A stretch of DNA of 64,000 bases from Streptomyces clavuligerus. Lineage in GTDB: Bacteria > Actinomycetota > Actinomycetes > Streptomycetales > Streptomycetaceae. Every line of letters starts with the position of its first letter. Within the stretch, counting starts at the first letter, position 1. Where the stretch lies: contig NZ_CP027858.1 of the NCBI RefSeq assembly GCF_005519465.1, positions 6,125,001 to 6,189,000 of the forward strand, read 5' to 3'. Below the pieces are notes generated by a model, which was not told the origin of the DNA, made no database searches, and saw only the letters and a list, made by a program, of their open reading frames with translations. Shown here piece after piece: positions 23,512 through 44,940 of this stretch. Made by a program: the position numbers and the translations under genes.

Positions 23512-23898
23512 ATGGCACCCTTCACCACCCGACTGCTCACCCTCACCACCGGCACCGAGGAAACGGTCATCGACCTCACCGCCGCCTGCGAGGACTTCCT
23601 CCGCTCCACGGCCGAGGCCCGCGACGGCCTCCTCAACGTCTTCACCCCGCACGCCACCACCGGCATCGCCCTGATCGAAACCGGCGCCGGCAGCGACCAC
23701 GACCTCCTCACCGCGCTCCACACCCTCCTCCCGGCCGACGACCGCTGGCAACACCGCCACGGCACCCCGGGCCACGGCCGCGACCACGTCCTCCCGGCCC
23801 TGGTGCCGCCGCATGCCACGCTTCCTGTCCTCGGGGGGCGTCTTGAGCTGGGGATGTGGCAGTCGGTGTGCCTCGTGGAGTCAAGGGGTAGCAACTGA
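23512..23898 (+). CDS. yjbQ: YjbQ-family protein with displaced C-terminus (integration target)
   Basis: A YjbQ/UPF0047 protein; the family has thiamine-phosphate synthase side activity in E. coli. Conserved motifs are FTPHATTGIALIE, DHDLL and GTPGHGRDHVLPALV with the metal/active-site His residues. The frame runs normally to GMWQSVCLV and then ends abruptly with ESRGSN. The expected ending, DTNVDNAERQVRLSFLG, is found at 44761-44814, right before a strong terminator. Joining codon 122 (ends at 23877) to 44761 gives a normal 139-aa YjbQ. The gene is therefore interrupted at its 3' end by about 20.9 kb of accessory DNA. The shortened product may still fold, since only the last strand is replaced. 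Confidence 0.88.
   Translation: MAPFTTRLLTLTTGTEETVIDLTAACEDFLRSTAEARDGLLNVFTPHATTGIALIETGAGSDHDLLTALHTLLPADDRWQHRHGTPGHGRDHVLPALVPPHATLPVLGGRLELGMWQSVCLVESRGSN
23877..23893. repeat. Left junction of the inserted island in yjbQ (attL-like)
   Basis: The coding sequence departs from the yjbQ consensus at the short shared core GGA (23877-23879). The element side begins GTCAAGGGGTAGC (from 23880), and the reverse complement of its CAAGGGGTAGC part nearly matches GCTACCCTTG just before the right junction (44727-44736). This could be a pair of inverted recombinase arm sites. No intact integrase gene is present. Confidence 0.55.
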
Positions 23899-24111
23899 GA
23901 CAACCCGTACGGCATGTCGCACGTAAGGCTGGTGCCGTTCTGCCGGCCATATTCGGCCAGGGCATCGCCACGGCCGGGTGTGTCAGGCGAAGACGGATGC
24001 ACGCGACCAGTTGTCGAGAGCCATCGGCTTCGGATCCGGGCGGTGTCGGCTGGCGCAGGGATGCGGTGGGCCCAGGCGTGTAGTGGCTGTGGGGGATGGA
24101 TCGGTTGCACC

Positions 24112-27100
24112 TCACAGCCGGTAGGCGAAGCGGAGCGCGCCACCCTCCTCGCGGTAGAGCCCCCGACCGCGCTCGCTGAACGGATTCGGCAGCATTCGCA
24201 CCTGCCGGTGCTCCGCGTTCAGTACCGAGGTCACTACCAGGATCCGCCAGCGGTCACTGCCGCTGTACTTCTGCGCCGCCCGTACCTCGGTTTCGCCGAG
24301 CTCGATCTGCCCGCCCGGCCCCTGGGTGGCCTTGACCTCGTACAACCGCGGACTCCTGCCGGAGCCGACCTTGAAGTCGTAGCCGAGGCTGTCGTCTCCG
24401 GCGGGCCCGGGGAAGATGTGGGCCCGGTTGCCGGAGACCCAACTCGTCTCGTCGGTCGCCCGGTCCTGCTCGCGAAGCCATTGGTACGCGTACCACTCGC
24501 CCACGAATCCGATCGCCGAGCGCTGGGCCGACGACAGCCCGCGTTCCCCGTCGACGCGCATGCCGGGCCGGCCACCCGAGGAGCCGGTCGCCCTCCGGGG
24601 CGGGATCGGCCTCAGCGCGGCCCAGCGCCTGCGGGCACTGCCGCTGGGGGGCAGGTCGGGTTGCAGAGCGCGGTGCAGCTCCGACGCCAGCTCGGTGAAG
24701 TCGCCTGACTCGATGTCGAAGTCCCGCTCACCAATAGAGATGATCCGCTTGCGCTTGGCCCGTTCGGCGCGGGCCTGCTCGGTGGCGTTCCGTACTCGGT
24801 CCAGCTCGGCGGGAGTGAGCCCGTGCGCCTGGGGCTCTGAGGAGGCAGCCATGCCGGCCGGCCACTGGCCCAGGGCCGCGAGCCAGCCGACGACATCGTC
24901 GGCCGAGAGCTCGCGGAAGTCGAGCGCGCCCGCCTCGTCCAGCAGGGCGGTGATCTCCTCTACGGCGGCCGCCTTCGCCAGCGCTGCGGGTAGCGGCCTT
25001 TTCGCGGCCTTGACCAGGGCGACCAGGTCGGGTGTTGTCTTGGCTACGATCGCGTGGTTGTGGCTGCGCAACCTGTCCATGGCGGCAAGCCGTTCGCCCT
25101 TGGTCGGGGCGCGCGCACTTAGACGGGCGGTGAGTGCCTGCTCGACGAGGGCCCGCAGGAGGCCGTCGTCGGCGGTGTCGACGGTGAATGCCCATTCTTC
25201 CGGAGCCGTGATCCATTTCAGGGAGCGGGTAGCGGGCCAGTCGGCGATGAGTCTACGGGCATCGAACTCTTCCCGACGGGCCCAGCGCAGCCGGTCGATG
25301 AGGACGCCGCGACCGAAATCCACGTGCCGACGTACGGCCTCGTTGTGGGCCTCCGCGTGGCTGATCGGGCGGTACTGGGGCGCAAGCCCTGCCAGAGTGC
25401 GGTTCAGGTCCGCGAAGTCGACTTTGGCCAGGGCCCGGAGGCCGTCGATATCTCGCGCGTTGCGCGCGGCCTCGATGAGCTGCGCGGCGGGCAGGGGAAG
25501 GGCGTCCGCGTACGGTGTGAGGCGGGCCAGGAACTCCCGGGCGTCGGCCGGAGCCGGGTCCGTGAGCTCCCTCGCCTTGTCGGCGCCGAGGGCGTGTACG
25601 AGGAAGGGGTGGCAGCGCTCCAGTACGCCCGTGAGGGACCCGTCCAGGCGGTGAGCGGTCTCTCTGACCTGGTGGACGGAGAGATCGAGCACCGCCGCGA
25701 GCTGCCGCTCGGTCGGCTCTTCGAGGGATGCGTGCCCCCGCTCCAGCTCGCGGGCGGCGAGCTTGAGCGGGACGGTGTACTCCGGACGGTCCAGGACCTG
25801 GCTGACTGCGTAGCCGATCCGGGCCACGAAGTCCCAGGAAAGGGGCAGGTCCGGGGTGAGGATCAGAGGGTGGGCGGGGTCGGGTAGAGGGAGCATGCCG
25901 TCCTGCCGTTCCGGGAGTTCCACGGCGGCTCCGTCGAGGGTGATCTTCAGCGAGACGTAGCGGTGGATACGGACTCGGCGGACGGCGGCGACGAAATCGG
26001 TGAGCTCGGCGTCGGTCGGGCGGCTGCCACGGGGCGGATGGTCGGCCAGGACGCCCACCGCGAGTGGAAGCCAGGGTAGCTCGTCGACGAGCGGTGTTCC
26101 GAGCCCTTCGGTAGTGCCGGAGGTTCCGACGACGGTAGTGCCGGAGGTGCTGACGATTTCGACCGACAGGTCAGCGTCGTCGGCGTGCCGTATCGCGTCC
26201 GGGCAGCGGTGGCGGAGGATGCCGGCGACTTCAGCCGCCGCCCCCGGAACCACGAGCAGCGGAAGCTTGAGCTCCCTGGCCAGGCGTGCCTTCAGATGGT
26301 TCCGATCCCCGGTGACGTACAGCCGTACTGAGCCGTCGAGGAGCGTAGCGAAGTCGACCGCGATGAGCTTCTTACCCCGCTCTGCGAGCAGGGCCGAGCC
26401 GATGAGCGGCTCGATCGAGGCCGTCTGCGCGGCCAGGTTCTGCCAGGCGCGCTCGTTAGCCCGCTGAAGGGCGGGCCGGTCCCCGTCGTCCACGGCATCC
26501 GACTTCACCAGCTCGCCCAGGGTGGCGATGAGCCGGGCGCTGTCCCTGTGGTCGCCCCAGGTCGGCAACCCGGCATCGCGCAGCCGTCGCAGGACCTGAT
26601 CGTCCTCCAGCAGGGAGCGGAGCTCCCGCAGGACGGTCGGGGCGAAGGCCGGCTCCTGCTCAAGGGTCGAGGGGGCATGCCACGCTTCGTCCGGCCGGAC
26701 GAAGCGGATGGTGCCGCCACGGCCTCGCACCGGGAGCCAGCGCTGGCCGCGGATGAAGGCGGACAGAGGGGTCGGGACGTACTGCGTATCCTTGTTGCCC
26801 GTCCGGTCCCGGTTCCAGACGCTGGTGAGGTGAGTGTTGTTCCACCGGGCCAGGCCGTGCAGGACCAGTCGTGCATAGGCGATCCTGCCCGGTTTGCTCA
26901 GCCGCCCGGCGACGTCCTGGCCCGGTAGCCGGAACGCGGGGGTTCCGACGTACGGGGTGTACGGATGTGCGACACGGCTCCTCGCGCGGTCGATGAACGG
27001 CCGCCACTGATCGGCGACCTCGTCAGACACCTTCGCCATGCTGATCAGTTTGCTCGTGGTGAGTGTGCCGCCCTCGGCCTGCGTCTCCGCGCCGGAGGAC

Positions 27101-29517
27101 ACCAGGGGGAGCAGTCCGTCGGTGACGCCGAGATCGCTGAGGAACTCCCGCCACTCCTCCCGGGTTTCGCCCCGCCTTAGGAAGTCCTCGGGTGGCGCCA
27201 CGAGTCGCTCTGCCATGAAGCGGAGGCCGGCCGAGGACTCCCGGCCCTCGGCCACGACGGAGGCGAGATCGTCGCCGTGGGTCCCGGTCCATCCGGCCCC
27301 GAAAGCGGCGCCGGCCGCCTTGATGGTGGGGCCCTCGGCAGAGGGAACGTATAGCCCCAGCGGACGCAGTTGCAGAGACTGTGCGGATTGCCTCGACCGG
27401 TAGAGGCGGAACACGAAGCGGAGGGCCTGCTCGCGCAGCCGCGTCGAGTTGCTTTCGGTGAGCGCGCGGCGGACGTGGTCGAGCAGGCCGGCGGCGTCGA
27501 AACGCCGGACGAGCCTGAAGCGTTCCAGAAACAACCGGGCTTCCTGGCGCCGTACGTGGCCTTCCTCCTCCACCCAGTTCAGCCCCGGGTGTAGATAGAA
27601 CATGCGCTTTTTCAAGGCGTCGGGCACGGCCAGGCCCTCGTCGCCCGCTGTCTCGCCGCGAGCCGGCTGGAAAAAGGCTTCCCGCCTGGCCGCCTTGCGC
27701 CGCGACCCGTCCTTTGTGCCCGTGGCAGAGCCGCCGTTGGCGGGCCGGAGCTTCCCGTCGTCCGCCAGCAACAGCTTCCTGCCCTGCAGTACTCCGCCCT
27801 CGTCCTTGAACAGCAGGGCGAGATCGGCGTAAACGCTGTTCCAGTTGTCGACGGGCGCATCGGGGGCGGGCAGCGGCAGGGTCCCCACGATCTGCTCGGC
27901 GTGGTCCGCCCGCTGCTGTGCCGAGGGCTCCAAGGGGCACTTGAGCGCCTCGCACAACCTCGCGAGACGCTTCAGGAGCTTGGCCCCGACGGCCGGATCC
28001 GCCACGGCGATGCCGACCGCCCCGGCCGCCTCGGCCGTGAGTACCGACAGCCCGAGGTCAGGCCAGAGCACGGAATCGCGGGGCGTGCCCCAGGAACCGT
28101 GTGGGGCGTCCCGGTTCAGGAGTGGTACGACGGAAACGTCCGCGAACTCAGCCCCGTGCACCTGATGCGCCGCTTCGCGCAACAGGTTGTGGGAGCGCGG
28201 CTCGTGCTCCCAGGTCACAAGGTCGACCGCCAGCCTGCGGTCTGAAGGCCGGTCTCGCTCCCGCAGCGCGGCGGCTGCCGCCAGAGAGGTCTCGGCGGCC
28301 GCCGCGAACAGCATGCTGTTTAGCGGGTGCTCCCGGTCGAGGGCCGTACGGTCCACCTTCGTGAAGAACGGTGCGTTGAGGTGCCCGCGCAGGGGGGCGG
28401 CGGCGTCCTCGCCCAGCGGGAGGAAGGTGTAGATCCGGCCACCGCGCAGCGACTCGGTGCCGTCGAGGGGCAACGCCACCTCTACCACAGCCGGTTCCTT
28501 CCAGTCACCCCACGAATCATCTAGCTGCCCGAGCTCGGTGGCCGCCTCGATCGTGCCGCGCAGCCGTGCTACGGGGACGCGGCCTCTAGCCACGAGGTAT
28601 GCGCCCAGTGAGCCGAGTTCGACACGGGCAAGGGAGACGGTCGGGACGGTCCGCGCGGCACCGGCATGTGCGACGTGTGCCTGGGGCCGGACACCGGCGG
28701 TCCCCAAGGGCACTTCATGCCGGGTGAGCTCCGTACGCTGGGGACTTTTGCCACCTCGCCGTTCGATGAGCAGTCGGTTGAGCCGGTCCAGGAACAGCAT
28801 TACCGGGGCCTTCGCGGCACCGAGCTCGTCGAGGCGCCGAACGGCCGCGCGTCGGGAGGCCTCGTTGCGCAGTGGGATCCTGATGACCGTCACATGACCG
28901 TCGGCGGCCAGCTTCTTGCAAGTCGGGGGTACGTCCGAGAGAGGGAAGGGGACCTGGAAGGGCGGGAGTTCCTCCTCCGCTTTATGTACGAGGTCCTCGT
29001 CACCAAGCAGCACGCGCAGGTCGTCCCGTACCGCGAACCGGAAGCAGTACCCATCCAACACAGCCAGGCCCTCTCCGGCCGTGCTGGCGCTGTAGACCTC
29101 CGGGGCATCCGTGATTTCCAGGATGCTGCGGAAGCCGACACCCTTGTTCCCGATGCCTTCGCCGACGGTCTTCTCGCTCCGGGCGAGCTTGCAGACGGCC
29201 TGGATGCTGGCCCAGGTGAAGGGCGTGCCACCGTTGGCCACATAGAGCGTGCCGTGCGTCCCTTCGTCCTCGTCGAGCAGGACGTGCACACTTCCGTCGT
29301 TCCGGCCTCCGCGGTGAGCATCGTGGCCGTTCTGGAGCAGCTCCAGGAGGAAGCGGCCGGCGTAGTCGCGCGCGTTGCTGTGCGATGCTGCGCGCAACTG
29401 CTGGGCGGGTTGCCATACCTGCGTGGACTGCCACTCCTTGAGCACGGTCTGCGCGTAGTCCCAGAGCTCGCGCGCCCACGTACCGCTTGGGCCGTCCTCG
29501 TCCGTCTTACCGGCCAT
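24112..29517 (-). CDS. Very large GHKL-ATPase (sacsin-like) protein with C-terminal DUF3883 nuclease-like domain
   Basis: An 1,801-aa protein. The N-terminus has a histidine-kinase/HSP90-type ATP-binding fold: ELLQNGHDAH (N-box) and EGIGNKGVGFRSILEI (G-box), as in sacsin-type ATPases. The C-terminal 150 residues form a DUF3883 domain with a PD-(D/E)xK-like arrangement: Asp in SLGYDFKV, then LYEVKATQG. The middle 1,300 residues are helical and unassigned. The start at 29517 follows AGGGGG. No kinase dimerisation domain is seen, so signalling is unlikely; large GHKL-DUF3883 proteins are typically found in defence islands. It is the main cargo of the first inserted module, transcribed divergently from the next gene. 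The mechanism is unknown; ATP-gated DNA cleavage is inference. Confidence 0.8.
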   Translation of the reverse strand: MAGKTDEDGPSGTWARELWDYAQTVLKEWQSTQVWQPAQQLRAASHSNARDYAGRFLLELLQNGHDAHRGGRNDGSVHVLLDEDEGTHGTLYVANGGTPFTWASIQAVCKLARSEKTVGEGIGNKGVGFRSILEITDAPEVYSASTAGEGLAVLDGYCFRFAVRDDLRVLLGDEDLVHKAEEELPPFQVPFPLSDVPPTCKKLAADGHVTVIRIPLRNEASRRAAVRRLDELGAAKAPVMLFLDRLNRLLIERRGGKSPQRTELTRHEVPLGTAGVRPQAHVAHAGAARTVPTVSLARVELGSLGAYLVARGRVPVARLRGTIEAATELGQLDDSWGDWKEPAVVEVALPLDGTESLRGGRIYTFLPLGEDAAAPLRGHLNAPFFTKVDRTALDREHPLNSMLFAAAAETSLAAAAALRERDRPSDRRLAVDLVTWEHEPRSHNLLREAAHQVHGAEFADVSVVPLLNRDAPHGSWGTPRDSVLWPDLGLSVLTAEAAGAVGIAVADPAVGAKLLKRLARLCEALKCPLEPSAQQRADHAEQIVGTLPLPAPDAPVDNWNSVYADLALLFKDEGGVLQGRKLLLADDGKLRPANGGSATGTKDGSRRKAARREAFFQPARGETAGDEGLAVPDALKKRMFYLHPGLNWVEEEGHVRRQEARLFLERFRLVRRFDAAGLLDHVRRALTESNSTRLREQALRFVFRLYRSRQSAQSLQLRPLGLYVPSAEGPTIKAAGAAFGAGWTGTHGDDLASVVAEGRESSAGLRFMAERLVAPPEDFLRRGETREEWREFLSDLGVTDGLLPLVSSGAETQAEGGTLTTSKLISMAKVSDEVADQWRPFIDRARSRVAHPYTPYVGTPAFRLPGQDVAGRLSKPGRIAYARLVLHGLARWNNTHLTSVWNRDRTGNKDTQYVPTPLSAFIRGQRWLPVRGRGGTIRFVRPDEAWHAPSTLEQEPAFAPTVLRELRSLLEDDQVLRRLRDAGLPTWGDHRDSARLIATLGELVKSDAVDDGDRPALQRANERAWQNLAAQTASIEPLIGSALLAERGKKLIAVDFATLLDGSVRLYVTGDRNHLKARLARELKLPLLVVPGAAAEVAGILRHRCPDAIRHADDADLSVEIVSTSGTTVVGTSGTTEGLGTPLVDELPWLPLAVGVLADHPPRGSRPTDAELTDFVAAVRRVRIHRYVSLKITLDGAAVELPERQDGMLPLPDPAHPLILTPDLPLSWDFVARIGYAVSQVLDRPEYTVPLKLAARELERGHASLEEPTERQLAAVLDLSVHQVRETAHRLDGSLTGVLERCHPFLVHALGADKARELTDPAPADAREFLARLTPYADALPLPAAQLIEAARNARDIDGLRALAKVDFADLNRTLAGLAPQYRPISHAEAHNEAVRRHVDFGRGVLIDRLRWARREEFDARRLIADWPATRSLKWITAPEEWAFTVDTADDGLLRALVEQALTARLSARAPTKGERLAAMDRLRSHNHAIVAKTTPDLVALVKAAKRPLPAALAKAAAVEEITALLDEAGALDFRELSADDVVGWLAALGQWPAGMAASSEPQAHGLTPAELDRVRNATEQARAERAKRKRIISIGERDFDIESGDFTELASELHRALQPDLPPSGSARRRWAALRPIPPRRATGSSGGRPGMRVDGERGLSSAQRSAIGFVGEWYAYQWLREQDRATDETSWVSGNRAHIFPGPAGDDSLGYDFKVGSGRSPRLYEVKATQGPGGQIELGETEVRAAQKYSGSDRWRILVVTSVLNAEHRQVRMLPNPFSERGRGLYREEGGALRFAYRL

Positions 29518-29889
29518 GTCCCCCTGCTTCCATGATGATCTCAGGCAGACCGTAGCGCGGGGTCGCCGGCTGCGCAGCGCTGTCCGGGAACCGGAAAGAC
29601 GTCGGAGCCGCGGCTCGGTAGACCTGGGGCTCCGACGTCCTCTGGGAGTGCGGTTCACTTCCAGTGCGTCGCCGTCCTTCCTGGCCGCGCATGGGCGACA
29701 ACCCGCTTGCGGTGCGCAGGGCATCCGTCTAGCCTGCGGGCAGGAATGGAGCCTGGGACGGTACCTGGGCCACCCCCGGTCATCTTGAGGTACGGAGCGT
29801 CGGAACGCGCCCTCGCCACCACCTCTTTCCCGCTTCTGTGCACCTGTTCTGTCCGGCCGTAGTGTGCCGAACAGCCGAAAGGCTTTTCC

Positions 29890-30885
29890 TTGACCATCTA
29901 CTCTCAGCACGCCGCCCGTGGGAAGACGCAGATCCTGGCGACCTACCAAGGTCCGGACGGCGTCGTGTCCAAGACCGTGACGAGTCTTGCGGAGCCTCGC
30001 CTCGCGGTTCCGGTCGTCGACGCCCTCAACCGGATCTCCGCCTTCGCCACCGTCCCTGTCAGCATCCACGACCGCCGGGAACGGCGTGTGGGCCGCTACC
30101 CACGCACACACCTCGCCGCGCTGACCGACCCCGCCGCCCGCGCAGCTCTTCTCGGCGGCGCCCACAGTCTGTGGTACGAGTACGTCTGCCTGCGGCTTCA
30201 CCAGGCGCTCGTCGACCTGGAAAGTGCCGTGTCGGTTCTCCCCGACACGGTCAGCAGGGCGATCCGATCCGAACTGGAGTCAGAGAAGCACGGGTTGCAG
30301 GCAGGACTCGCGGAATTCTCGGGAACTTCCTCGGAGGGTGATCCGGAGACCGAGCGCTGCTGGGAGTTCGGGCACCCCTTCGTGAAGTACGACGACGGGC
30401 TGGACACGCTAAGCGACAAGACGCGCGAACAACTCGACCGACGTGAGTCGGGACTCACCTCGGAGGAACGGGAGAAGGCGGTCGCCGCCCTCCGGGTACT
30501 GGTCACCGCCCACTCCCAGGGCGGCGACGAGTGGGCTTCACTCGACGACCCCAGCTGCCGCCTCTTCACGGAGCCGTACGACTCCGACGGCTTCTACCTG
30601 ACGATCGAAGCGCCAGAACCAGACGACGACGAGACCTCGTGGGAGATCGAGGTCAGCCGTTGGACGCCGGACGATCCCGAGGAGGAGCCCGGGAACCACA
30701 CCAGCGCGACAGGCCACACCGTGGTCGGCTGCACCCTTCCGGTCCCGCCGACCGCCGAGGAGATCGCCCACTTGCTGAAGTGCGCGGACGAGAACCCGCT
30801 GCTGCTCGCCGAGTGGGCTGAGACACCCGCGGGAACAGCACTCTCAGGGACGGCGATGGTGGTGACCGAACGCTACGACTTGTGA
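29890..30885 (+). CDS. Hypothetical protein, partner of the GHKL-DUF3883 gene
   Basis: I do not recognise this 331-aa protein. It uses a TTG start (29890) with GAAAGG a few bases upstream; no better ATG lies nearby. It is acidic overall, especially residues 215-260 (PEPDDDETSW, DDPEEEPG). It has no membrane segment, signal peptide or known catalytic motif. It is divergent from the GHKL-DUF3883 gene across a 370-bp gap and lies inside the same inserted module, so it may be an accessory factor or inhibitor of that system. Confidence 0.65.
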   Translation: MTIYSQHAARGKTQILATYQGPDGVVSKTVTSLAEPRLAVPVVDALNRISAFATVPVSIHDRRERRVGRYPRTHLAALTDPAARAALLGGAHSLWYEYVCLRLHQALVDLESAVSVLPDTVSRAIRSELESEKHGLQAGLAEFSGTSSEGDPETERCWEFGHPFVKYDDGLDTLSDKTREQLDRRESGLTSEEREKAVAALRVLVTAHSQGGDEWASLDDPSCRLFTEPYDSDGFYLTIEAPEPDDDETSWEIEVSRWTPDDPEEEPGNHTSATGHTVVGCTLPVPPTAEEIAHLLKCADENPLLLAEWAETPAGTALSGTAMVVTERYDL

Positions 30886-31442
30886 TCCGGGTCGGCAAGA
30901 AGCCGTGCCGTGCCGCTGGTGTGATGGGCTGGGGACGGCCAGCCACTGCATGCCGAGCGGATGCTTGCCGTGCTGGCCACCCCGCGAGGTGACGGCCACT
31001 GCTGGTCGGCGTGCGTTGCCATCCGGATAGGCTGGCAGTTGCCCTAACGGAGGTTGGCGGACACGAACAGGAGCAATACCAACCGTCAGGTCAGGTTGTC
31101 GTTCCTGGGTGGCATCGGCGACGCCTGACTGTACGGGCCATGTCCGGCCGCACCAACTGCCCGGGCCGTGGTGCGTGGCCGCGTCGGGTACTCACGCTCC
31201 CTGCGGCTTCGTCACCGATGTGCGGTCGCGGTGCGGGCCTGCCCTACCGCCCGGGCAGCAACGTACTCGCCTCCGGCATCCGGGGCGCGCAGAGCCTTGT
31301 CTACTCGTTCGAGAGCACGGAGTAATCCTCGGCCCTCACTGCCATGAGAATGATGGCAGCGACGCGAGAACGTGATTTCGGACCGCCCCTTAACGTGGGT
31401 GGCGAAGTACCGCAGGGGTGGCGGAGGAGGGGACGTACCAGC
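30886..31442. other. Module boundary region between the GHKL-DUF3883 and Wadjet modules
   Basis: These 557 bases hold no convincing gene. They contain the first internal yjbQ-tail repeat (31043-31128), after which about 315 bp of non-coding sequence lead into the Wadjet operon; its promoter should lie there. Confidence 0.6.
31043..31128 (+). repeat. yjbQ-tail/att-like repeat A
   Basis: Conserved end motif CCTAACGGAGGTTGGCGGAC followed in frame by a yjbQ C-terminal coding tail: LADTNRSN, then NRQVRLSFLGG, with a stop at 31126-31128. There is no yjbQ body upstream. It shares the 20-bp end motif with repeats B and C while the tail codons differ, as expected if each unit came from a different host's yjbQ gene. 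Confidence 0.75.
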
Positions 31443-37300: not shown

Positions 37301-38439
37301 ACGCCGACCGGCAGGAGAAGGCAGTCGAGGCCCGCGACGGCGCGGCGCGGCGGTTCCGGCACCTGTGCCTGGTGGGTCTGGCCGAGGACGCGGGCGTCGT
37401 ACCCGAACTCGACGCCGGGGACGGTACCAAGGCCACTCTGGAGGTGGCGCGCGCCATGGCGGCACGGTGGCCCCAGGTCCCGCATGCCCCGCGCCACCTC
37501 GGCGACGCCGCCACCCGCCTCTCCGAAGCCGTCCACGAGGCCCGCCGCCACCTCGGCGTCCGAGCCGACCTGGAGCTGGAGCCCGACGACGACATCCAGC
37601 TCTTCACTGCCACCCTGGAGGGCGTCCGCGTGGGGGCGACCGGTCTGCTCGCCGTGCTTACCCAGGAGCGCGACCGCAGCGGCGACGACATCAGCACCGC
37701 CGAACGGCGCCTCTTCGACCAGATCCTCACCGGTGACATCCGCCGCCACCTCGCCGCCCGCATCCGCCGGGCCGGCGAACTCGTCGCGCACATGAACGGG
37801 CACCTGGAGCGGGTCCGTACCGCCTCCAACGTTGCCGTCCAGCTAGTCTGGGACGTCCGCCCCGACCTCCCCGACAGCACCCGCACCGCCCGCCAACTGC
37901 TCCTGAAGGACCCAGGCCGGGTCACCGAGTCCGACCGGGAGGCCCTGCACGCCTTCTTCCGTGCCCGCATCGAGGAGACCAAGGGCAGCGACACGGCCGC
38001 GAGCTGGGAGGAGCACCTCGGCGAGGTGCTCGACTACACCGCCTGGCACACCTTCACCGTCCGCCTCGACCGGGCCGACGGGAGCGGCTGGCAGCCCCTG
38101 ACAAAGCGGCTGCACGGCGCGCTCTCCGGCGGGGAGAAAGCCATCGCACTGCACCTGCCCCTGTTCGCCGCCGTGGCCGCCCACTACGAGGACGTGCCCC
38201 TGGCACCCCGCCCGATCCTCCTCGACGAGGTCTTCGTCGGCGTCGACACCGTCAACCGCGGACAGGTCTTCGCGCTGCTCACCGCACTCGACCTGGACCT
38301 CATGATCACCTCCGACCACGAGTGGGGAAACTACAGGGAGCTGCCCGGCATCGCCGTCCACCAACTCCTGACCGACGGAGACGACGCCGTCACCAGCGCG
38401 CGCTTCGTCTGGAACGGCACGGGAATGGAGGAAGGATGA
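34306..38439 (+). CDS. jetC: Wadjet type II SMC-like ATPase JetC (TIGR02680)
   Basis: This 1,377-aa SMC/MukB-like motor has an N-terminal Walker A (GQNGTGKSKALEL, near residue 65), long coiled-coil arms (roughly 270-560 and 760-1000) around a hinge, and a C-terminal head with signature LSGGEKAIALH and Walker B PILLDEVFVGVD. It starts with GTG at 34306 inside the jetB stop codon, with an AGAAGGAG site upstream. In Wadjet systems the JetABC complex loads on and extrudes plasmid DNA using ATP (known). All ATPase motifs are intact, so function is likely. Confidence 0.94.
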   Translation: MSVTELPLQRRPEETIDPSPVHDADTGRGRWRPHRAGILNVWRYYDETFTFHQGRLLLRGQNGTGKSKALELLLPFLFDASLRPNRLSTFGGSERTMHWNLLGQGASGKTRVGYVWMEFRRVGDDGAEHWFGCGARLHASGHTTTAHADYFTTIARIAHPDGVHLVNDTGQPLTKAALTEALRDRGEVHPSATDYRTTVRRELFAGMGEQRYESLLSALLQLRQPKLSERLDPSLLSTLLSRALPPLGEGEITELAEGFERLDRQRDHLDRLDAEVTAAENVASRQRAYARRVLRAGAAALISATTEMDDLTRDARVSAQEYEKACEERGSTLALREELDLRAHALDEIIEGLRESDAYQKGEELDRLRRGTEEQVAAAAELRTAARSAESDAEEDRKHADDVAGHARSCVEHARATADETNRSARAAGMESIHHEVKTILDAEGEVKSLGNGTASTPVRTGSRRSDAPGAAARRLLRGAVTARREQVADITDAIDAHDRAVRDRGTAEGLLDEARTRLADAIAHRDTAATAGDNALAAQAERLLAWARNWTEMRIADLDELAARAAVEADVRELVETVARPLEEEITTERAAFRTAQQGLEQERDLLDARRSKLSGETDLQPVAPPTRTTVRTAAAGAPLWRLIAFHENVPLPVQAGVEAALEASGLLDAWVSASEGFTLPGHDTRVEVGLATTAPGSSLLDVLRPEEHIPVLAGTVTRILAGIAYGTPLPGGHPVAVSSDGTWRLAPATGSWSKPEPAHIGALARQRAKQRESTELAELIAEKDASLATLADRLRELGARAARLADDRSARPDHRELDACRRDWDQAEEKVAARDDAVRYATEHLAAREGDVAGALRTLSRRAAENGLPTDRDRLRELGRDMERFRDLADTWTDARIDAIAAAERAEETAARADRSRLLAEKQAADAAAAEAKAAGMTARLKAVEETVGADYRQIVARVAETRAERVRCGKEARQAAELLLGLEGRIGELRATSGQDADRQEKAVEARDGAARRFRHLCLVGLAEDAGVVPELDAGDGTKATLEVARAMAARWPQVPHAPRHLGDAATRLSEAVHEARRHLGVRADLELEPDDDIQLFTATLEGVRVGATGLLAVLTQERDRSGDDISTAERRLFDQILTGDIRRHLAARIRRAGELVAHMNGHLERVRTASNVAVQLVWDVRPDLPDSTRTARQLLLKDPGRVTESDREALHAFFRARIEETKGSDTAASWEEHLGEVLDYTAWHTFTVRLDRADGSGWQPLTKRLHGALSGGEKAIALHLPLFAAVAAHYEDVPLAPRPILLDEVFVGVDTVNRGQVFALLTALDLDLMITSDHEWGNYRELPGIAVHQLLTDGDDAVTSARFVWNGTGMEEG

Positions 38440-39743
38440 CCTTGCAAGACCACCCCGTGTCCGGCGGGCTGACCTCTCGGGAGCATCTTGCCTTGGGCGA
38501 CGCGCCCCTTCGCCGCCCCGAACTCCTTGCCGTCTGGCAGACGGTCCACGACCGTCTCTCCTCCGGCCGCCCCGTCACACGCGTACGCCTCGGACCTCTG
38601 GACGAGACCCAGCGCGAAGCCCTCGCAGACCTCCTGGGCCTGGACCGCCTGCCGGACCCCCGGCCCTCCGTTGCCCTGGCGTGCCTGGAGGAGGCCGTCA
38701 CCGAGCTCTCCGGCCGCACCGTACGAGAAGTCGTCGCCGAACTCATCGGCCCACTCGGCGACAGAGCCGGTGAACGCCGTCGCCAGGAGGACGAACGCGC
38801 CGGTCTGTGGGCCTGGCTGGCTGGTCACGACACGGTACGGGCGCAGCCGGTGCTCACCGACTGGGCTGCGTCATGTCGAGCCGCAGGACTGGTCGGTGGT
38901 TCGACGGAGCGCACCCGTACGCTGCTCATCGACGCGCTCAAGGTGCTCGCCGAGCTACCCGGCCAGGCCGAACCTCTACCAGTCTTCGCCGCCCGAGTCC
39001 TGAACGGTCACGCGCACGCTCTCGACGACGGCACACCCGTCTCCACCCTCGTCCTGCGTGCCCTGGCGACTCTGTACGACATTGCACCGCCGCAGTCCGC
39101 GGCGGAACGGCGCGCCCTGTGGTCCCGCGCCGGTGTCGCCGACGACGAGCTGTCCGCCACCGTCATCGCCGGCGGACTGCGCCCTGTCGGCGACGGCCTT
39201 CTCGCCCGTGTGGCCCGCCTGTGTACCGAGGCCGGCCAGGCCGCCAGCCTGACTCTCGCCCACGTCAGGAACCCGGGCGAGCTCACCCTGCCCGCCACCC
39301 CTGCCTCACTCGTCGTCCACGTAGTGGAGAACCCCAGCATCTTGGCTCTGGCCCTCCGTCGCTTCGGCTCCAACTGCCCACCGCTTGTCTGCACGTCCGG
39401 CTGGCCCAACAGCGCAGCTATCCAGCTCCTGCGCCTACTCGCGGACCAAGGCGCTGCTCTCCGTTACCACGGTGACTTCGACGGCGAAGGCATCCGCATT
39501 GCCGCATACGTCATGGAGAAAGCAGGGGCGCACCCCTGGCGCATGACGGCGGCAGACTACCGATCCGCGATCGTCCGCAACGCGCACGGTCCTCGACCTG
39601 GGCGCATCACCGGAGCACCGTGGGATCCCGAGTTGGCCGAAGCCATGGCGGGGCACGACATCGCCGTGGTCGAGGAGCTGGTAGCCGATGTGCTGTTGGA
39701 AGATCTCACTGCTACGACTCGTCAGCGACACCCCTCCGGCTGA
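38436..39743 (+). CDS. jetD: Wadjet type II nuclease JetD (TIGR02679, Toprim-like)
   Basis: A 435-aa protein that overlaps the end of jetC by ATGA. The C-terminal Toprim/topoisomerase-VI-A-like domain carries the acidic motif YHGDFDGEGIRIA (DxDxEG) and an upstream SGWPNSA segment. The N-terminal part is the family's helical region (ELLAVWQTV). JetD cleaves DNA once the SMC complex has extruded a small circle (known for Wadjet). With jetA, jetB and jetC it makes a complete, apparently intact operon. Confidence 0.92.
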   Translation: MTLQDHPVSGGLTSREHLALGDAPLRRPELLAVWQTVHDRLSSGRPVTRVRLGPLDETQREALADLLGLDRLPDPRPSVALACLEEAVTELSGRTVREVVAELIGPLGDRAGERRRQEDERAGLWAWLAGHDTVRAQPVLTDWAASCRAAGLVGGSTERTRTLLIDALKVLAELPGQAEPLPVFAARVLNGHAHALDDGTPVSTLVLRALATLYDIAPPQSAAERRALWSRAGVADDELSATVIAGGLRPVGDGLLARVARLCTEAGQAASLTLAHVRNPGELTLPATPASLVVHVVENPSILALALRRFGSNCPPLVCTSGWPNSAAIQLLRLLADQGAALRYHGDFDGEGIRIAAYVMEKAGAHPWRMTAADYRSAIVRNAHGPRPGRITGAPWDPELAEAMAGHDIAVVEELVADVLLEDLTATTRQRHPSG

Positions 39744-40190
39744 CCCTTCACTCCAGACGATTGACGGGCCGTAGGCCGGTGTTGGACCGTGGTGATGTCG
39801 ACTGTTGTTTTGCGTGGCCCAGTTTCTATGACGCATCACATGGAGCGTGGCACCAGGTGGCTTTGGGAGTCGTCCTAACGGAGTTGGCGGACACCAGCAA
39901 GGGCAAATCCCACCGCAAGGTTCGGTTGAGCTTCTTCGGTGGGTGAGCCGAGTCGGCTGCACCACAGTCGCGAAGTCCGGCTGCGCCAACTGGACGATCG
40001 AGCCGCGTACCCGAACCTGCTGGTGGGTCGTCGGAACACGAGGGGACGGCGGTTGGAGTTACGGGAGCCTATTCGGGTTTCTGCGTAAGGGCCAAGGCGC
40101 GGGCCGTGCCCGCTGAGGCCGCTCATCGTCGATGGCCACAAATCGCATGAGCCCGTATGGATTGTCAGATCGTGCGGATAGCCTGTCGGG
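39744..40190. other. Module boundary region between the Wadjet and Hsp70 modules
   Basis: These 447 bases contain no gene. They hold the second yjbQ-tail repeat (39874-39946), followed by about 240 bp that should carry the promoter of the next operon. Nothing else was recognised. Confidence 0.6.
39874..39946 (+). repeat. yjbQ-tail/att-like repeat B
   Basis: End motif CCTAACGGAGTTGGCGGAC (one G shorter than in A and C) followed in frame by the tail LADTSKGKSHRKVRLSFFGG and a stop at 39944-39946. It lies about 130 bp downstream of jetD, closing the Wadjet module. No yjbQ body is present upstream. Confidence 0.75.
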
Positions 40191-41894
40191 GTGTACGAGA
40201 TGACGGACCCGGTGGCCGCTCGGCAGGCGGCGAAAGCGGCTGAGCGAGAGCGCCTGAAACGTGCGCGTGAACGCAGGGAGAACCAGGGCTCATCCAGCGT
40301 GAGCAGCTTCGTTCAGCGCAAGTGGCGTTGGCTCGGCGTCGGGGACGGCGAGGCGGTCGAAGCCGTCCTGGCCATGCTCACGGAGGCAGTGGCGGCCACC
40401 GGCCTGCCCGAGGCTGAGCGGGCGATCCTCACGCAGGCCATCGGCGGCGATCCGGACCGCGACAGCCTGCTGCCCGCCGTGCGCATGGGGTTGGGCCTCC
40501 TGTCGCCGGAGTCGGTCCTCGGTCATCTGCGGAGCCTCTGGGCCGGTGGTGTGCGATGGCTCAACGAATCGGGCCTGGAGCGGTGCAGGGTGCTGTGTTC
40601 AACGGCGCCCGCCCTGGAACTGGTCGGCAAGCGGTCCCACGCGCTCTCGGGCGGACCCGCCTTCAGCCTCTTCGCCACCGCCTGCACACGCGGCGCGATA
40701 CCCGTGCCGAACCGGTTCCTCGACGAGCTCCTCGAACGGGCGCCCCTGTCCGTCATCGACGATCTGGTCGACCACGGCGGCCTCATGCCTGAGGACGCGC
40801 CCTGGACCAGACGGGATGAGCAGGAGGGCCTGTACCTGCGCGCCCGTCTCGCCCCCTCGACGGTCAGCGGTGAGCAGGCCGAATGCCTCGCCTGGCAGAC
40901 GTACCTGCGACGGCAGTCCTTCCTCGGTGACGACGATCTCGCCCGACAGGAGCCGGACGACGTGTGGGACCTGCTGTACGACGTCGTCATGGACGGCGAC
41001 GTGACGGCCGTGGACGCGCTCGACGCGGCACTGCCGCGGCCGCAGCAGATCGAGCTTCGCGACCTCAAGTCGGGTGCGCTGTCGGGGCAGTGGCCGCCGC
41101 GCATGACCGAGGATAGGGGACTCTGGTTGCTGATGGCCGCTCTGTGGCGCCCGCAGGGCCTTGTCGACGCCGGACGGAGCCCGTTCTACGCCCTTGTCGC
41201 ACTGAACCGCGCCTACGACCTCGTGAAGGCCGGTGACCTGGAGGCGGCGGCCCAGCAGGCCCGGTCCCTCACCAGGGACAGCGTGAGCAACCGCAGGGTT
41301 CCCGCGGAGCTGGCCGAGGAGGCCAACGCCCTCGCGGCATACGTGGCCGCGAGACAGAGCGAGCGGCTCGAGTCGCGCACGGAACGGGACAGGCTCCTCG
41401 ATTCCGCCGAGGAGTACGCCAGTAGAGCCGCCGCGCGGGGAGGGGCCGCCGCCGAACGCAACCTTCGGCTCCTTCGTGCCTGGAGAGGGACGAGGAGGAA
41501 TGACCGTGGCCCGTTCGGTAATCCCTTCCTCGACATCGGCTTGGATCACGGGGCCGGAGGGTGGGAGGAGCGCTGCCGGGACATCTTCCGGGAGCGCGAG
41601 GGGGACGCCAGGGCCCAGTCGGAGCTGAACATGGCCGAGGAACGCATTCGTGACGCACTGCGCGGCGAGGTGGGCTGGGACGTCTTCTACCAATTGCCGC
41701 TCGACCGGTCACGGTACGTCGTGCCCTCTCAGGTGCCGAACCATCTGGTGCCCCCCGTGGAGGCCCTGCCGCGCCGGACCGCACTGACGAGCGGCGGCGA
41801 GCTGGAGGCCATACGCGCCCGTGCAGCCGTGGAGCTCCTCGACGACTTCCGGACCACCGCGCCGCGCCTCGACCGCCACAGCTCCCCACGATGA
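40191..41894 (+). CDS. Hsp70-module protein 1, helical, possible degenerate J-like C-terminus
   Basis: A 567-aa protein I do not recognise as a named family. It starts with GTG at 40191 (an ATG follows at 40200). The N-terminal 35 residues are highly charged (AAKAAERERLKRARERR). The middle is alpha-helical, with repeat-like blocks that suggest a TPR/HEAT-like scaffold. Around residues 440-485, NPFLDIGL, then WEERCRDIFRE, then QSELNMAEERIRDAL follow the helix spacing of a J domain but lack HPD. It is the first gene of a three-gene operon with the Hsp70-NYN fusion. It might deliver clients or sense infection; this is inference. Confidence 0.65.
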   Translation: MYEMTDPVAARQAAKAAERERLKRARERRENQGSSSVSSFVQRKWRWLGVGDGEAVEAVLAMLTEAVAATGLPEAERAILTQAIGGDPDRDSLLPAVRMGLGLLSPESVLGHLRSLWAGGVRWLNESGLERCRVLCSTAPALELVGKRSHALSGGPAFSLFATACTRGAIPVPNRFLDELLERAPLSVIDDLVDHGGLMPEDAPWTRRDEQEGLYLRARLAPSTVSGEQAECLAWQTYLRRQSFLGDDDLARQEPDDVWDLLYDVVMDGDVTAVDALDAALPRPQQIELRDLKSGALSGQWPPRMTEDRGLWLLMAALWRPQGLVDAGRSPFYALVALNRAYDLVKAGDLEAAAQQARSLTRDSVSNRRVPAELAEEANALAAYVAARQSERLESRTERDRLLDSAEEYASRAAARGGAAAERNLRLLRAWRGTRRNDRGPFGNPFLDIGLDHGAGGWEERCRDIFREREGDARAQSELNMAEERIRDALRGEVGWDVFYQLPLDRSRYVVPSQVPNHLVPPVEALPRRTALTSGGELEAIRARAAVELLDDFRTTAPRLDRHSSPR

Positions 41895-41953
41895 TCGCTT
41901 CGGCGTAGTCGCCCTGATCCACCGTCCGAGCCGAACGAAGCAGAGCAGCCCTG

Positions 41954-42586
41954 ATGCCTTCCAAGAAGAAGACTCCCAAGAAAAAGCGGGCACACCGCTC
42001 GTGCCCCGCGTGCGGGCAGATGCAGCCCGGGGCACGGGTCTCGCCGTCACCGAACAAGCCGGGAGGTCTGAAGCGTCGGCGGGAGCGGCACATGGGCGCC
42101 CCGGCCGAGCCCGCCGAGACCAGTGTCGTCAAAGCTCCGCCGCATCCTGCTCCGATCGACGCGATGACAGTCATCCAAGGTGTGGCGGCCTGCGTTTCGG
42201 AGGCACTGGAGGCTGCCGGAGCCGAGGGGACACCCCCGGCCGGTGCGCTCACCGCAGCGGTGCGCCGGGCGGTCCTGGACGAGTTCCGCACACGCGCTCA
42301 GTTCGCCGGACGGCTTGCCGAGATCGACGCGCTGCTCTGGTCCCGGGCCGGGGACAGCCGCGAGACCGTCGGGGGTGCGATGGCGGCTCACCTGCGGGAA
42401 CTGCGACTGCTGCGGGTCACGGAGCCGGAGGAGAGCGACCGGTTCGTGGTGACCGAGGGAGAGGGGGACGCCTTCGAGCTGCTGAGCCCTGCGTACGTGG
42501 ACGAGTTGACGGGGAAGGTCATTCTCGCGGGGCAGCTCCGGCGCATCACCGGACCTGCGGGCGCGAAGGCGGGGGAGGAAGCATGA
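41954..42586 (+). CDS. Hsp70-module protein 2, small zinc-ribbon-like/basic protein
   Basis: A 210-aa protein with a Lys-rich N-terminus (MPSKKKTPKKKRAHRSC) and a single CPACGQ knuckle, followed by a short linker and a helical/winged-helix-like C-terminal part (residues 70-205). Its stop codon overlaps the start of the Hsp70 gene (ATGA), so its expression is linked to the chaperone. By position it could be a nucleotide-exchange or adaptor factor, but no GrpE signature is seen. The 60-bp gap before it has no strong ribosome-binding site. Confidence 0.65.
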   Translation: MPSKKKTPKKKRAHRSCPACGQMQPGARVSPSPNKPGGLKRRRERHMGAPAEPAETSVVKAPPHPAPIDAMTVIQGVAACVSEALEAAGAEGTPPAGALTAAVRRAVLDEFRTRAQFAGRLAEIDALLWSRAGDSRETVGGAMAAHLRELRLLRVTEPEESDRFVVTEGEGDAFELLSPAYVDELTGKVILAGQLRRITGPAGAKAGEEA

Positions 42587-44652
42587 CGGCCACCGGAATC
42601 GACTTCGGGACCACCAACTCGGTCGTGGCTCAGTGGAACGGCGAGTACGTCGAGATCCTGGAGATCGGCGGGCAGGGTCTGGACGCGAACTGGAGGCGCG
42701 AGGGGTTCGAGCTGCTCTACCCGTCGGTCGTCGGTACAAGTTCCCTACGGCCGGGCACCCTGTTCGGCTGGGAGGCGAAACTCCGCTCCGAGCAGGCAGT
42801 CGAGGCGTGCAAGCGGATGCTGCGAGAGGAGCCCTTCGTCCAGCTGGGCGGTGAGCGGTTCGCCGCGACCACTGCGGCGGCCGGCGTCTTCCACGCCATC
42901 GCGGGCGCGGCACAGGAAGAGGCCGCCACCGAGATCCACGACGCCGTCATCACCGTGCCCGCCAACGCGACCGGTGCGGCCCGTTACCGGACCCGCGAAG
43001 CCGCGCGTGCCGCGGGGCTCACGGTCCGCATGCTGTTGAACGAGCCGACGGCGGCGGCGATCACGTATGCCCACGAGATGGAGGTCGACGGCGAGTTCCT
43101 GGTCTTCGACTGGGGTGGCGGCACGATGGACTCCACCCTCCTCCTGCACGACGACGGGTTCTTCGACGAGAAGGCGAGCAGGGGAGTCAACCGCCTAGGC
43201 GGCCTGGAGATCGACGCTCGGCTCCGCCGCATGGTCCTGGACCGGGCGCCGGTGCGGGGGCGTTGGAGCGATTCCCAGAATCGGATGTTCGCCTTGGAGA
43301 TCGAGCGGGCCAAGATCCTCCTCTCCCATCAGGAGTCGGTCCGCGTCCTGACGCCCGACGACATCACCGTCGAGATCGGGCAGGACGAGTTCTCCGAGGC
43401 GATCCAGGACCTCATTGACCGGGCCTTGGACCCGGTGGAGGAATGCCTGGAGCAGGCCCGGATCGACCCGCGGGGCCTCACCGCGGTACTGATGATCGGC
43501 GGCAGCAGCCAGATCCCGGCGGTGCGCGCCGCAGTCTCGGAGGCGCTCGACTGCGAGCTCGTGGACACAATCATGTGCGACCCGATGACTGCGGTGGCCG
43601 AGGGAGCGGCCATCTGCGCCGCAGCCATGGACGAGGAGCTGAAGAGCACCATCCGTGTGGTGAACACACATGCCCTGGGCACCATCACCAAGGACCGTGA
43701 GGGCAGACGGAAGTTCAGCGCACTCATCGGCCGAAACCAGCGCCTGCCGCAGCAGCGTGTGAAGTCGTACGAGCCGACGAAGGACAACCTCAAGAGGTTG
43801 ACCGTGGAGGTGTGGGAAGGAGACCCGGACCGCGAGGTCGACCACCCGGACAATGTCAAACTGACCGACCTGATCCTGACCTATCCCCGGCAGTGCAGAG
43901 CCGAGGACGGTGTCTTCGACTTGGAGTACGCCTACAGCAAGGAAGGGCTGCTGACGGTCCGGGCGACTCTGCAGAAGACCGGTGAGGTGGTCCTCGACGG
44001 CGAGGTGAAGGTGTTCGGGGACGGGAACGTGCTGCCGGAGGTGAGGAAGGAACTCGACCGGTTGCTCGCCCTTGCCCCGGCCGCCCGAGCCGTGACCACG
44101 CCGACTCACCCCCAGAGGGCGGGCGCCGACGGCCGGAGCAACGGTGTGGCCAAGCCCGCCCCGCCTCGTTCCGCAGCCCCGACGGCCGCAGCGCCGGCTG
44201 TCGCGCCGCCGCTCGTCATCGACGGATCCAACCTCGCGTGGAACGGGCGGCCTCCGCGCACGATGGGCGGCAAGCCGAGTTTCGCGGCACTGCAAGCCGC
44301 CGTGCGGTCGCTGCGCTTCAAGCACCCCGACAGCGACATCCACGTCGTGGTCGACGCCACCCTCCGTCACGACGTGTCGACCGAGGAACGGCCTCTCGTG
44401 GAGGCGGCCATCGCCGACGGCAGTGTGGTGCAGCCCCCGGCCGGAACCGAGGGCCGCGGCGACGCGCTGGTGATCAGCATCGCTCACGAGGTCGGCGGGC
44501 TCATTGTCTCCAACGACAACTTCGCACCGTTCCAACGGGCGAATCCGTGGCTGCGGGGCGCGGGGAGGGTCATGGGAGCGACTCACTCACAGGGCGTATG
44601 GGTCTTTAACCGGCGCGTACCCAATCCTGCGGCGCCTGCTCAGCGGAGGTGA
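42583..44652 (+). CDS. Hsp70-like ATPase fused to a NYN/PIN-like ribonuclease domain
   Basis: A 689-aa protein. Residues 1-375 are a complete actin-fold Hsp70 ATPase: phosphate-1 GIDFGTTNS, phosphate-2 VFDWGGGTMD, adenosine motif MIGGSSQIPAVRAA and DPMTAVAEGAAI. Residues 375-510 resemble a shortened substrate-binding beta domain; the lid is missing. After an Ala/Pro-rich linker (about 510-542) comes a NYN/Zc3h12a-type nuclease domain: Asp547 in VIDGSN, Asp591 in VVVDAT, Asp627 in GRGDALVI and Asp645 in VSNDNF. These match the acidic active site of PIN/NYN RNases. The fusion suggests chaperone-controlled RNA cleavage. ATG 42583 follows GGGGGAGG. Both domains look intact. Confidence 0.88.
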   Translation: MTATGIDFGTTNSVVAQWNGEYVEILEIGGQGLDANWRREGFELLYPSVVGTSSLRPGTLFGWEAKLRSEQAVEACKRMLREEPFVQLGGERFAATTAAAGVFHAIAGAAQEEAATEIHDAVITVPANATGAARYRTREAARAAGLTVRMLLNEPTAAAITYAHEMEVDGEFLVFDWGGGTMDSTLLLHDDGFFDEKASRGVNRLGGLEIDARLRRMVLDRAPVRGRWSDSQNRMFALEIERAKILLSHQESVRVLTPDDITVEIGQDEFSEAIQDLIDRALDPVEECLEQARIDPRGLTAVLMIGGSSQIPAVRAAVSEALDCELVDTIMCDPMTAVAEGAAICAAAMDEELKSTIRVVNTHALGTITKDREGRRKFSALIGRNQRLPQQRVKSYEPTKDNLKRLTVEVWEGDPDREVDHPDNVKLTDLILTYPRQCRAEDGVFDLEYAYSKEGLLTVRATLQKTGEVVLDGEVKVFGDGNVLPEVRKELDRLLALAPAARAVTTPTHPQRAGADGRSNGVAKPAPPRSAAPTAAAPAVAPPLVIDGSNLAWNGRPPRTMGGKPSFAALQAAVRSLRFKHPDSDIHVVVDATLRHDVSTEERPLVEAAIADGSVVQPPAGTEGRGDALVISIAHEVGGLIVSNDNFAPFQRANPWLRGAGRVMGATHSQGVWVFNRRVPNPAAPAQRR

Positions 44653-44726
44653 CATGTTTGGGCGAACGCTCGCGGCCGACGGGGGTCTGGCGCAGGTTCG
44701 GGTGACAGGTTAGGTCAAGGGCGGCA

Positions 44727-44736
44727 GCTACCCTTG
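44727..44736. repeat. Possible inverted arm site near the right island junction
   Basis: GCTACCCTTG here is a near reverse complement of CAAGGGGTAGC at the left junction (from 23882). It lies just inside the right end of the inserted DNA. It may be a recombinase arm-type site or chance. Confidence 0.35.
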
Positions 44737-44742
44737 TGGTTG

Positions 44743-44814
44743 CCTTAACGGAGGTTGGCGGACACCAACGTCGACAATGCCGAGCGGCAGGTACGGCTGA
44801 GCTTCCTCGGCTGA
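44743..44814 (+). repeat. yjbQ-tail/att-like repeat C, probable native yjbQ 3' end
   Basis: End motif CCTTAACGGAGGTTGGCGGAC followed in frame by LADTNVDNAERQVRLSFLG and a stop (44812-44814). It is followed 28 bp later by a strong terminator and then by ordinary convergent chromosomal genes. It is therefore the best candidate for the original 3' end of the yjbQ gene at 23512. Confidence 0.78.
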
Positions 44815-44842
44815 CCTGCATCGCGGCCACGGCTCCCCTGAA

Positions 44843-44892
44843 CGGCCGGTACCCGGCCCGGAACACGGTGGTTCCGGGCCGGGTACCGGCCG
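44843..44892. terminator. Long perfect hairpin terminator after the yjbQ tail
   Basis: Perfect 22-bp arms (44843-44864 and 44871-44892) with a 6-nt loop lie between the displaced yjbQ tail and a convergent gene, so it can serve both directions. Its position supports 44814 as the native end of yjbQ. Confidence 0.8.
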
Positions 44893-44940
44893 TGTCGCTG
44901 TTCGGTTGTGCCGTCTGTGCCGTCTGTTCCGTTGCCGGGG

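Follow-up and report, generated by a model that had tools for sequence, protein, structure and literature searches.

What has become of the 3' end of yjbQ in Streptomyces clavuligerus? In a stretch of 64,000 nucleotides of its genome (NCBI RefSeq assembly GCF_005519465.1, contig NZ_CP027858.1, positions 6,125,001 to 6,189,000 of the forward strand; hereafter the window), the gene departs from its native end and a matching tail lies 20.9 kb downstream. The locus probably consists of tandem, site-specific islands that a large serine recombinase (LSR) specific to yjbQ inserted in the 3' end of this gene. The evidence comes from the junctions of the window, from related loci across the genus, and from the recombinase found beside yjbQ in several relatives.

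A yjbQ gene parted from its tail

An initial annotation, made from the letters of the window alone, had yjbQ leaving its family consensus at codon 123, in agreement with the 12 relatives fetched as apparently empty sites, all of which (12/12) end yjbQ with ...LVDTNxDNxxRxVRLSF.... The tail and the hairpin placed 20.9 kb downstream were also recovered, as were two further yjbQ-like tails which, each preceded by a near-identical motif, split this DNA into three units (Table 1). Copies of motif plus tail occur at 31043-31128, 39874-39946 (where the motif lacks one G) and 44744-44814, and YTAACGGAG(G)TTGGCGGAC precedes each of the three tails. BLASTN comparison of the tail with the window paired the three tails at E ≤ 2e-7, all other matches except the hairpin having E ≥ 0.015, and a repeat search grouped them as a single three-copy family. 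With up to three mismatches, CCTAACGGAGGTTGGCGGAC had two matches in 64 kb (0.02 expected; two matches in 0/100 shuffles), the copy at 39874 being missed because one of its bases is deleted. The 20-bp motif is mostly not yjbQ, a point on which the annotation has to be corrected: its first ~14 bases are the element end, and only GG(C/T)GGAC overlaps the tail.

From yjbQ outwards, the window displays a class-c left end (see below for the classes), TmtA, the gene of a 331-aa protein and a right end (P); a class-b tail, a Wadjet II system and P; and a class-b tail, genes for a 567-aa, a 210-aa and an Hsp70-NYN protein, P and the native tail. Tail 2 matches sites in three other genomes (G053, G126, G115) together with the DNA 3' of it, at 79-81% identity over 145-150 nt; an internal tail therefore belongs to the following unit, and the copies differ because each is part of that unit's left end. 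Different source genomes, which the codon differences had been taken to imply, are thus likely but not required. The proposed succession of replacement tail, cargo and right end fits class-a and class-b units elsewhere, but unit 1 of the window, a class-c unit, has no replacement tail. Since this non-restoring unit adjoins yjbQ, YjbQ lacks its last 16 residues in this genome.

Table 1. Features of the yjbQ locus, in window coordinates
Feature	Position	Strand	Remarks
yjbQ, truncated	23512..23898	+	native to codon 122-123 (...MWQSVCLVE), then SRGSN and stop; final 16 native residues gone
Putative attL of unit 1	23875..23906	+	yjbQ half ending GTGGA plus class-c non-restoring P' end (GAGTCAAGGGGTAGCAACTGAGACAACCC); pattern like GGAGTCGAGGGTCAGCAACTTAGACAAC in G195, G053, G170, G179
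Unit 1 cargo, TmtA (Tiamat)	24112..29517	-	sacsin-like ATPase domain and NOV_C (Pfam, NCBIfam); PADLOC TmtA 1751 bits, nearly full length
Class-c end module	29672..31062	+	kept between genomes, cargo changes (unit 1 compared with fetched loci by BLASTN)
331-aa hallmark gene of class-c units	29890..30885	+	recurs by right ends of class-c units; no family match
Right end (putative P half), unit 1	31023..31062	+	
Tail 1, DTNRSNTNRQVRLSFLGGIGDA and stop	31060..31128	+	class-b restoring left end of unit 2
Stub, 3' end of TmtA-like gene	31238..31325	+	~88 nt; gene whole in G179, ahead of the corresponding Wadjet block
Unit 2 cargo, Wadjet type II	31464..39743	+	PADLOC Jet2 models; NCBIfam TIGR02677/8/80/79 above cut-off
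jetA	31464..32999	+	
jetB	32996..34309	+	
jetC	34306..38439	+	
jetD	38436..39743	+	
Right end (putative P half), unit 2	39863..39892	+	motif minus one G
Tail 2, DTSKGKSHRKVRLSFFGG and stop	39890..39946	+	class-b left end of unit 3
Unit 3 cargo	40191..44652	+	567-aa protein, 210-aa protein, Hsp70-like protein with C-terminal NYN RNase domain (Pfam HSP70 7e-56, RNase_Zc3h12a 7e-6)
Right end (putative P half), unit 3	44727..44763	+	start of putative attR
Native yjbQ tail, DTNVDNAERQVRLSFLG and stop	44761..44814	+	no left-end motif after this tail
Likely yjbQ terminator	44842..44893	.	perfect 23-nt hairpin, 3' of last tail

yjbQ ends as probable docking sites across the genus

With up to two mismatches, TAACGGAGGTTGGCGGACAC was found in 36/246 same-genus genomes (2 with the reversed control). 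Among 30 motif loci inspected, 20 had a strict VRLSF-type tail directly after the motif, the others being degenerate, with two (L003, L018) that look unrelated; a YjbQ match was present in 33/34 retained motif genomes. The arrays analysed, 29 in number, are the 36 motif genomes minus G011 and G106, which lack the tail, and five others (G076, G115, G133, G156, G191), set aside because yjbQ was absent from the matches or on another contig. In 29/29 arrays the right-end matches share the orientation of yjbQ and are found 0.3 to 268 kb downstream of it; besides the window, 28 other same-genus arrays have this arrangement. A sequence-only model of 22 sites matched 220/242 genomes, since native yjbQ ends fit it as well. 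At least 51/242 genomes carry an element end, as judged by eye from matches starting at model position ≤32 among those listed (to E 2.3e-12); position relative to yjbQ was checked for the 29 arrays only. Two observations that would tell against the site, as the annotation had it, were not made: no uninterrupted yjbQ ended otherwise than in this tail (12/12 apparently empty relatives have it), and the motif was not widespread outside yjbQ tails, unrelated matches being confined to 2/36 motif genomes (G011, G106).

The 12 relatives have a single uninterrupted yjbQ and no element end in the 11-13 kb fetched. In one of them, G023, the DNA after the stop resembles a class-a left end by eye and may be a relic. 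No close empty relative was found by the window flanks among the fetched loci, and the empty-site comparison therefore rests on another pair, G009 (empty) and G026 (occupied), which is collinear on both sides of a 5.9-kb insertion in the yjbQ tail with a 62-bp overlap (G009 106-554 against G026 68-519, 91%; G009 493-1790 against G026 6398-7693, 82%). Insertion at this codon of yjbQ is thereby borne out. The yjbQ-proximal tail is restored in frame in 28/29 arrays, the sole exception being the window; in G231, where it is restored, a stop occurs elsewhere in yjbQ. One array, in G179 (L114-L120, L218-L225), extends over ~268 kb and contains six junctions, with every left-end class represented; an intact LSR lies beside yjbQ and a decayed one 159 kb away. 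One minus-strand match to the tail alone, in G053, is unexplained.

The right-end sequence shared by the units, ...GGTTGYCYTAACGGAGKTTGGYGGA, would represent the P half of attP, with the crossover inside GTGGA, which is common to attB (CTCGTGGAC) and attP-like sites (TTTGGTGGAG). Left ends fall into three classes. Class a comprises a restoring tail followed by AAGATCGTYCWG-like DNA and is associated with the LSR; class b, without LSR, has a restoring tail followed by GACTGTAG...TCCGGCCGCACCAA-like DNA; class c, also without LSR, is the non-coding and non-restoring GGAGTCGAGGGTYAGCAACTTAGACAAC. LSR sequence was found no more than 1.5 kb from 15/21 class-a left ends and from 1/25 unclassified ones, whereas none of the 27 class-b and nine class-c ends had any at this distance (29 arrays, 53 junctions; a weak site of G053 at 2468, E 0.056, and other weak matches were excluded from these counts). 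Fisher tests of this association gave 5e-8 for a against b and 7e-4 for a against c, values that are generous given shared ancestry. No left-end motif follows the last detected junction in 17/29 arrays, as expected of native tails, and the remaining 12/29 suggest that the array continues. The tail DNA of class-a ends in G170, G179 and G147 contains GCTAAAGACAACCG; read on the opposite strand this is CGGTTGTCTTTAGC, which is similar to the P arm (G)CGGTTGTCCTAAC. The tails encode the protein end and probably serve as att arms as well.

A serine recombinase and the proposed growth of arrays

Clustering of the array genes revealed one recombinase family, present in nine genomes and 514 aa long where intact. 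Its gene, on the strand of yjbQ, begins ~70 bp past the yjbQ stop, and is broken in other arrays. The protein exhibits a Resolvase domain (PF00239, 4.4e-13) and a PHROG integrase match (4.5e-71), and its residues 22-489 align to PDB 9iu2 (1.5e-43), a 500-residue 'Integrase' that we take to be Bxb1; the zinc ribbon PF13408, at 25.0 bits, falls just below the cut-off of 25.3, and PF07508 was not reported by the Pfam scan. LSR matches at E ≤ 1e-50 occur in 35/392 genus genomes, and yjbQ adjoins the LSR in 10/11 near-full-length loci at ≥75% identity, against 0/11 at 47-63%. The latter (L179, L181-L188, L190, L192), with no yjbQ in the flank, are probably sister recombinases with other targets; no common target was recognised among the genes listed upstream of them. 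As for a source, 720 phage records matched, all below 60% identity (best 31.9% among those listed), and of four plasmid records the sole close one is a 2.8-Mb Streptomyces replicon with coordinates equal to those of G327; both origins were rejected.

In the mechanism proposed here, the LSR would recombine the attP of an element with the attB of yjbQ at GTGGA, and integrase-less units would use the LSR of a helper island, either in trans or carried along with the helper. The restoring P' half would imitate the native tail, so that attL stays attB-like and accepts further insertions; a newcomer would use it by ordinary attP x attB chemistry and push older units outward, and the array would grow. 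By a model of 11 empty sites, attB-likeness is 54-82 bits at 28 occupied loci, 77-85 at empty sites and 35 in the window, with the same outcome from 12 sites; restoring elements therefore leave a site that a newcomer could use. Consistent with such an order, 5/9 yjbQ-proximal LSR-bearing ends have an intact LSR, compared with 0/7 distal ones (p=0.029).

The annotation reported no recombinase gene. This holds for the window, where tblastn with the LSR, the kind of recombinase seen at this site, gave only chance matches, and, as regards the LSR, for its genome (none at E ≤ 1e-20; no PF07508), but not for the system, since relatives carry the LSR. As the window genome has no LSR match, its units may have been mobilised in trans or may have lost their helper. 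They could alternatively be immobile relics of LSR islands whose integrase was later deleted, and never satellites of a foreign integrase. The lack of an LSR in the window genome favours this explanation, and so does the decay seen in the system, with broken LSR genes in several arrays and unit 2 trimmed to a stub of a neighbouring gene. However, classes b and c have left-end sequences of their own, with LSR remnants in 0/36 ends, class c has a distinct end module combined with variable cargo, and units consisting of one or two large genes are found again in several genomes, which makes relics an unlikely, though not negligible, account of the window.

Over 8649 bp, unit 2 matches yjbQ-array DNA of G179 at 91.2% identity, the yjbQ bodies of the two genomes being 81% identical, a difference that points to horizontal transfer at the same locus. 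Unit 2 keeps only the stub (31238-31325) of a TmtA-like gene and has therefore been trimmed. In G179 (L119:3384-10791), a pPIWI protein and then a second TmtA-like gene, this one whole, directly precede the same Wadjet block. Streptomyces exchange chromosomal DNA, and the array might have been built stepwise by homologous recombination between the yjbQ ends of neighbouring strains at tails that share sequence, as the occurrence of unit 2 at the same locus in G179 would allow. This is improbable: the shared tail is ~70-80 nt at ~75% in the window, a poor substrate, and the exact P-half junction and the adjacent LSR would be left unexplained.

Tyrosine integrases typically insert in tandem and restore a gene's 3' end. 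The yjbQ end might thus be the target of such an enzyme from a phage or an actinomycete integrative and conjugative element (AICE), with the LSR as incidental cargo, and PF00589 genes do occur in 29/29 genomes searched, including eight matches in the window genome, of which the two listed lie elsewhere. Such an enzyme is very improbable here, given that the fetched arrays had no PF00589 match among those listed and that the sole recombinase family recurring in arrays, beside class-a ends, is the LSR. An integron cassette array, too, would call for a tyrosine integrase, along with attC sites.

Several observations weigh against docking by the LSR. Regeneration of attB does not by itself account for the class-c junctions found within arrays, and it has been reported, in the excerpt available of PMC3783163, that serine integrases do not recombine other site pairings. 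Nearby LSRs are missing from 6/21 class-a ends, 25 ends are unclassified, and L178, an LSR locus that looks intact, lacks yjbQ in the 1.5 kb around it. The att halves are deduced from sequence, and whole-site palindromy of seven hybrid att sites was not significant (98-237/300 shuffles reach the observed value), five of the seven sharing their best centre. No LSR match was found in the window genome, and its three units are thus only putatively mobile.

Cargo, satellites and known systems

Known anti-virus systems, as the annotation had supposed for all three modules, are present in two of the units: TmtA matches over its full length, as expected of Tiamat, and the Wadjet type II system is complete, with jetA2, B2, C2 and D2 all identified by PADLOC and NCBIfam. 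The proteins of unit 3 had no match among PADLOC models. With its Hsp70-like and NYN RNase gene, this unit is a candidate new defence system; an Hsp70 cluster occurs in four of the arrays.

Defence genes as cargo extend to other arrays. We scanned 97/127 genes (≥140 aa) from 33 short units without LSR, leaving out eight window genes scanned separately, two by size and 20 without a single-locus reference (14 from G243); the 12 apparently empty loci supplied, as a control, 94/103 genes from the DNA 3' of yjbQ. At PADLOC E ≤ 1e-20, the unit proteins included BrxC, BrxD, PglX, PglZ, BrxHI, Avs3a and Wadjet, as well as type IIG and type IV restriction enzymes and an oligonucleotide cyclase (among the best 25 of 84 families). 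The control proteins gave PD-T4-6 and other kinases, mad3, mad6, MkoA, IetA and a weak BrxHI (best 25 of 27). The contrast is one of kind rather than a measured enrichment. A 21-kb class-b unit of G090 (L162:1116-15040) contains a row of large genes and is probably the source of the BREX matches. Cargo is not limited to defence. A SpoIIE-type regulator gene family, typed by the pooled scan, occurs in short units of G104, G067, G007 and G026 (L151, L094-L095, L148, L129), at 93-97% identity, the yjbQ bodies being 86-95% identical.

The class-a island of G154 carries the LSR, Relaxase (5.1e-10), TraG-D_C (1.4e-34), T4SS-DNA_transf (5.6e-21), NlpC/P60 and DnaB, and combines the integrase, relaxase and type IV coupling protein of an integrative and conjugative element (ICE); its gene clusters are common to G147 and G179. 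Units of classes b and c resemble cis-mobilizable elements (CIMEs) in having att-like ends and no integrase (LSR within 1.5 kb of 0/36 ends), and share arrays with class-a islands in G053, G170, G179 and G005.

Class-c units often contain the 331-aa gene, which ends the unit 100-260 bp before the P end in 5/5 array cases; 4/9 class-c ends start units without it. Matches to the protein occur in 19/392 genomes. The P arm follows the gene by 147-154 bp in 9/10 full-length loci at ≥70% identity, the window's included, and was not found there in six full-length loci at ≤58%. The class-c end module is 79-92% identical to its relatives, with varying cargo: the window has Tiamat, whereas G195 and G170 have Wadjet. 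The protein had no match in Pfam, NCBIfam, PADLOC or PHROG, and its predicted structure (mean predicted local distance difference test score 76, predicted template modelling score 0.74) matched PDB entries with E 0.21 at best, giving no assignment.

A fuller picture, which we put forward tentatively and at less than even confidence, is that of a serine-integrase cassette system in which integrase-less defence satellites pirate the LSR of a helper ICE. The att half of classes a and b would double as code for the target's C terminus, sparing the host gene and rebuilding an attB-like site, and class-c satellites would carry, beside attP, the dedicated 331-aa protein, possibly a directionality or hijacking factor.

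Elements of the staphylococcal cassette chromosome (SCC) have rlmH as target and CcrAB as recombinases, unlike the arrays described here, in which the target is yjbQ rather than rlmH and a single LSR is found. The two have in common, together with the Enterococcus cassette chromosome, LSR-driven insertion at a gene's 3' end, ~50-bp att sites and several attR copies per genome (PMC6222049, in part). In Dehalococcoides, ssrA islands with the CcrB-like serine recombinase DsiB stand in tandem at a gene's 3' end, with the LSR beside attL and a conserved motif upstream of each repeat as in yjbQ arrays, and 15 islands without an integration module were proposed to be cis-mobilizable (PMC3146451, in the sections available). 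That system uses a tmRNA gene and a 20-bp repeat, whereas the target here, yjbQ, encodes a protein and has a tail 17-22 codons long; the cargo of the ssrA islands is reductive dehalogenases rather than defence, bacteria and module genes differ, and the same sections of PMC3146451 describe no 331-aa class. CIME accretion and AICE arrays in Streptomyces likewise hold same-specificity elements in tandem, some defective, but involve tRNA-Arg, AICE integrases and identical direct repeats instead of an LSR, yjbQ and diverged coding tails (PMC9513070, from an extract). Accretion of this general kind, which the annotation did not know from the literature, is thus reported in these portions of PMC3146451, PMC6222049 and PMC9513070. 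Defence hotspots of E. coli and Pseudomonas are also fixed chromosomal places gathering diverse defence systems (PMC10121019, PMC10250203, as excerpted); unlike them, yjbQ arrays have a nameable candidate docking enzyme and both unit ends. A Streptomyces LSR tool paper gives a radical-SAM gene as target and, in the text available, does not mention yjbQ (PMC12924846); no description of yjbQ as an integration site was found in the open-licence literature. Tandem islands at LSR sites are already known; the new features are the yjbQ system, its satellite classes, defence genes as cargo, and tails that code for the YjbQ C terminus and probably double as att arms.

For Streptomyces, these arrays offer a new candidate set of LSR, attP and attB for engineering, and a way to test array growth by a serine integrase despite the reported inactivity of hybrid site pairings. 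Selection seems to act on the tail DNA in two roles, as an att arm and as coding sequence. Element ends occur in at least a fifth of the sampled genomes, and the 3' end of yjbQ is a predictable arrival place for whole, bounded defence systems; cargo enclosed by a pair of P ends can be taken as a candidate module for defence or fitness.

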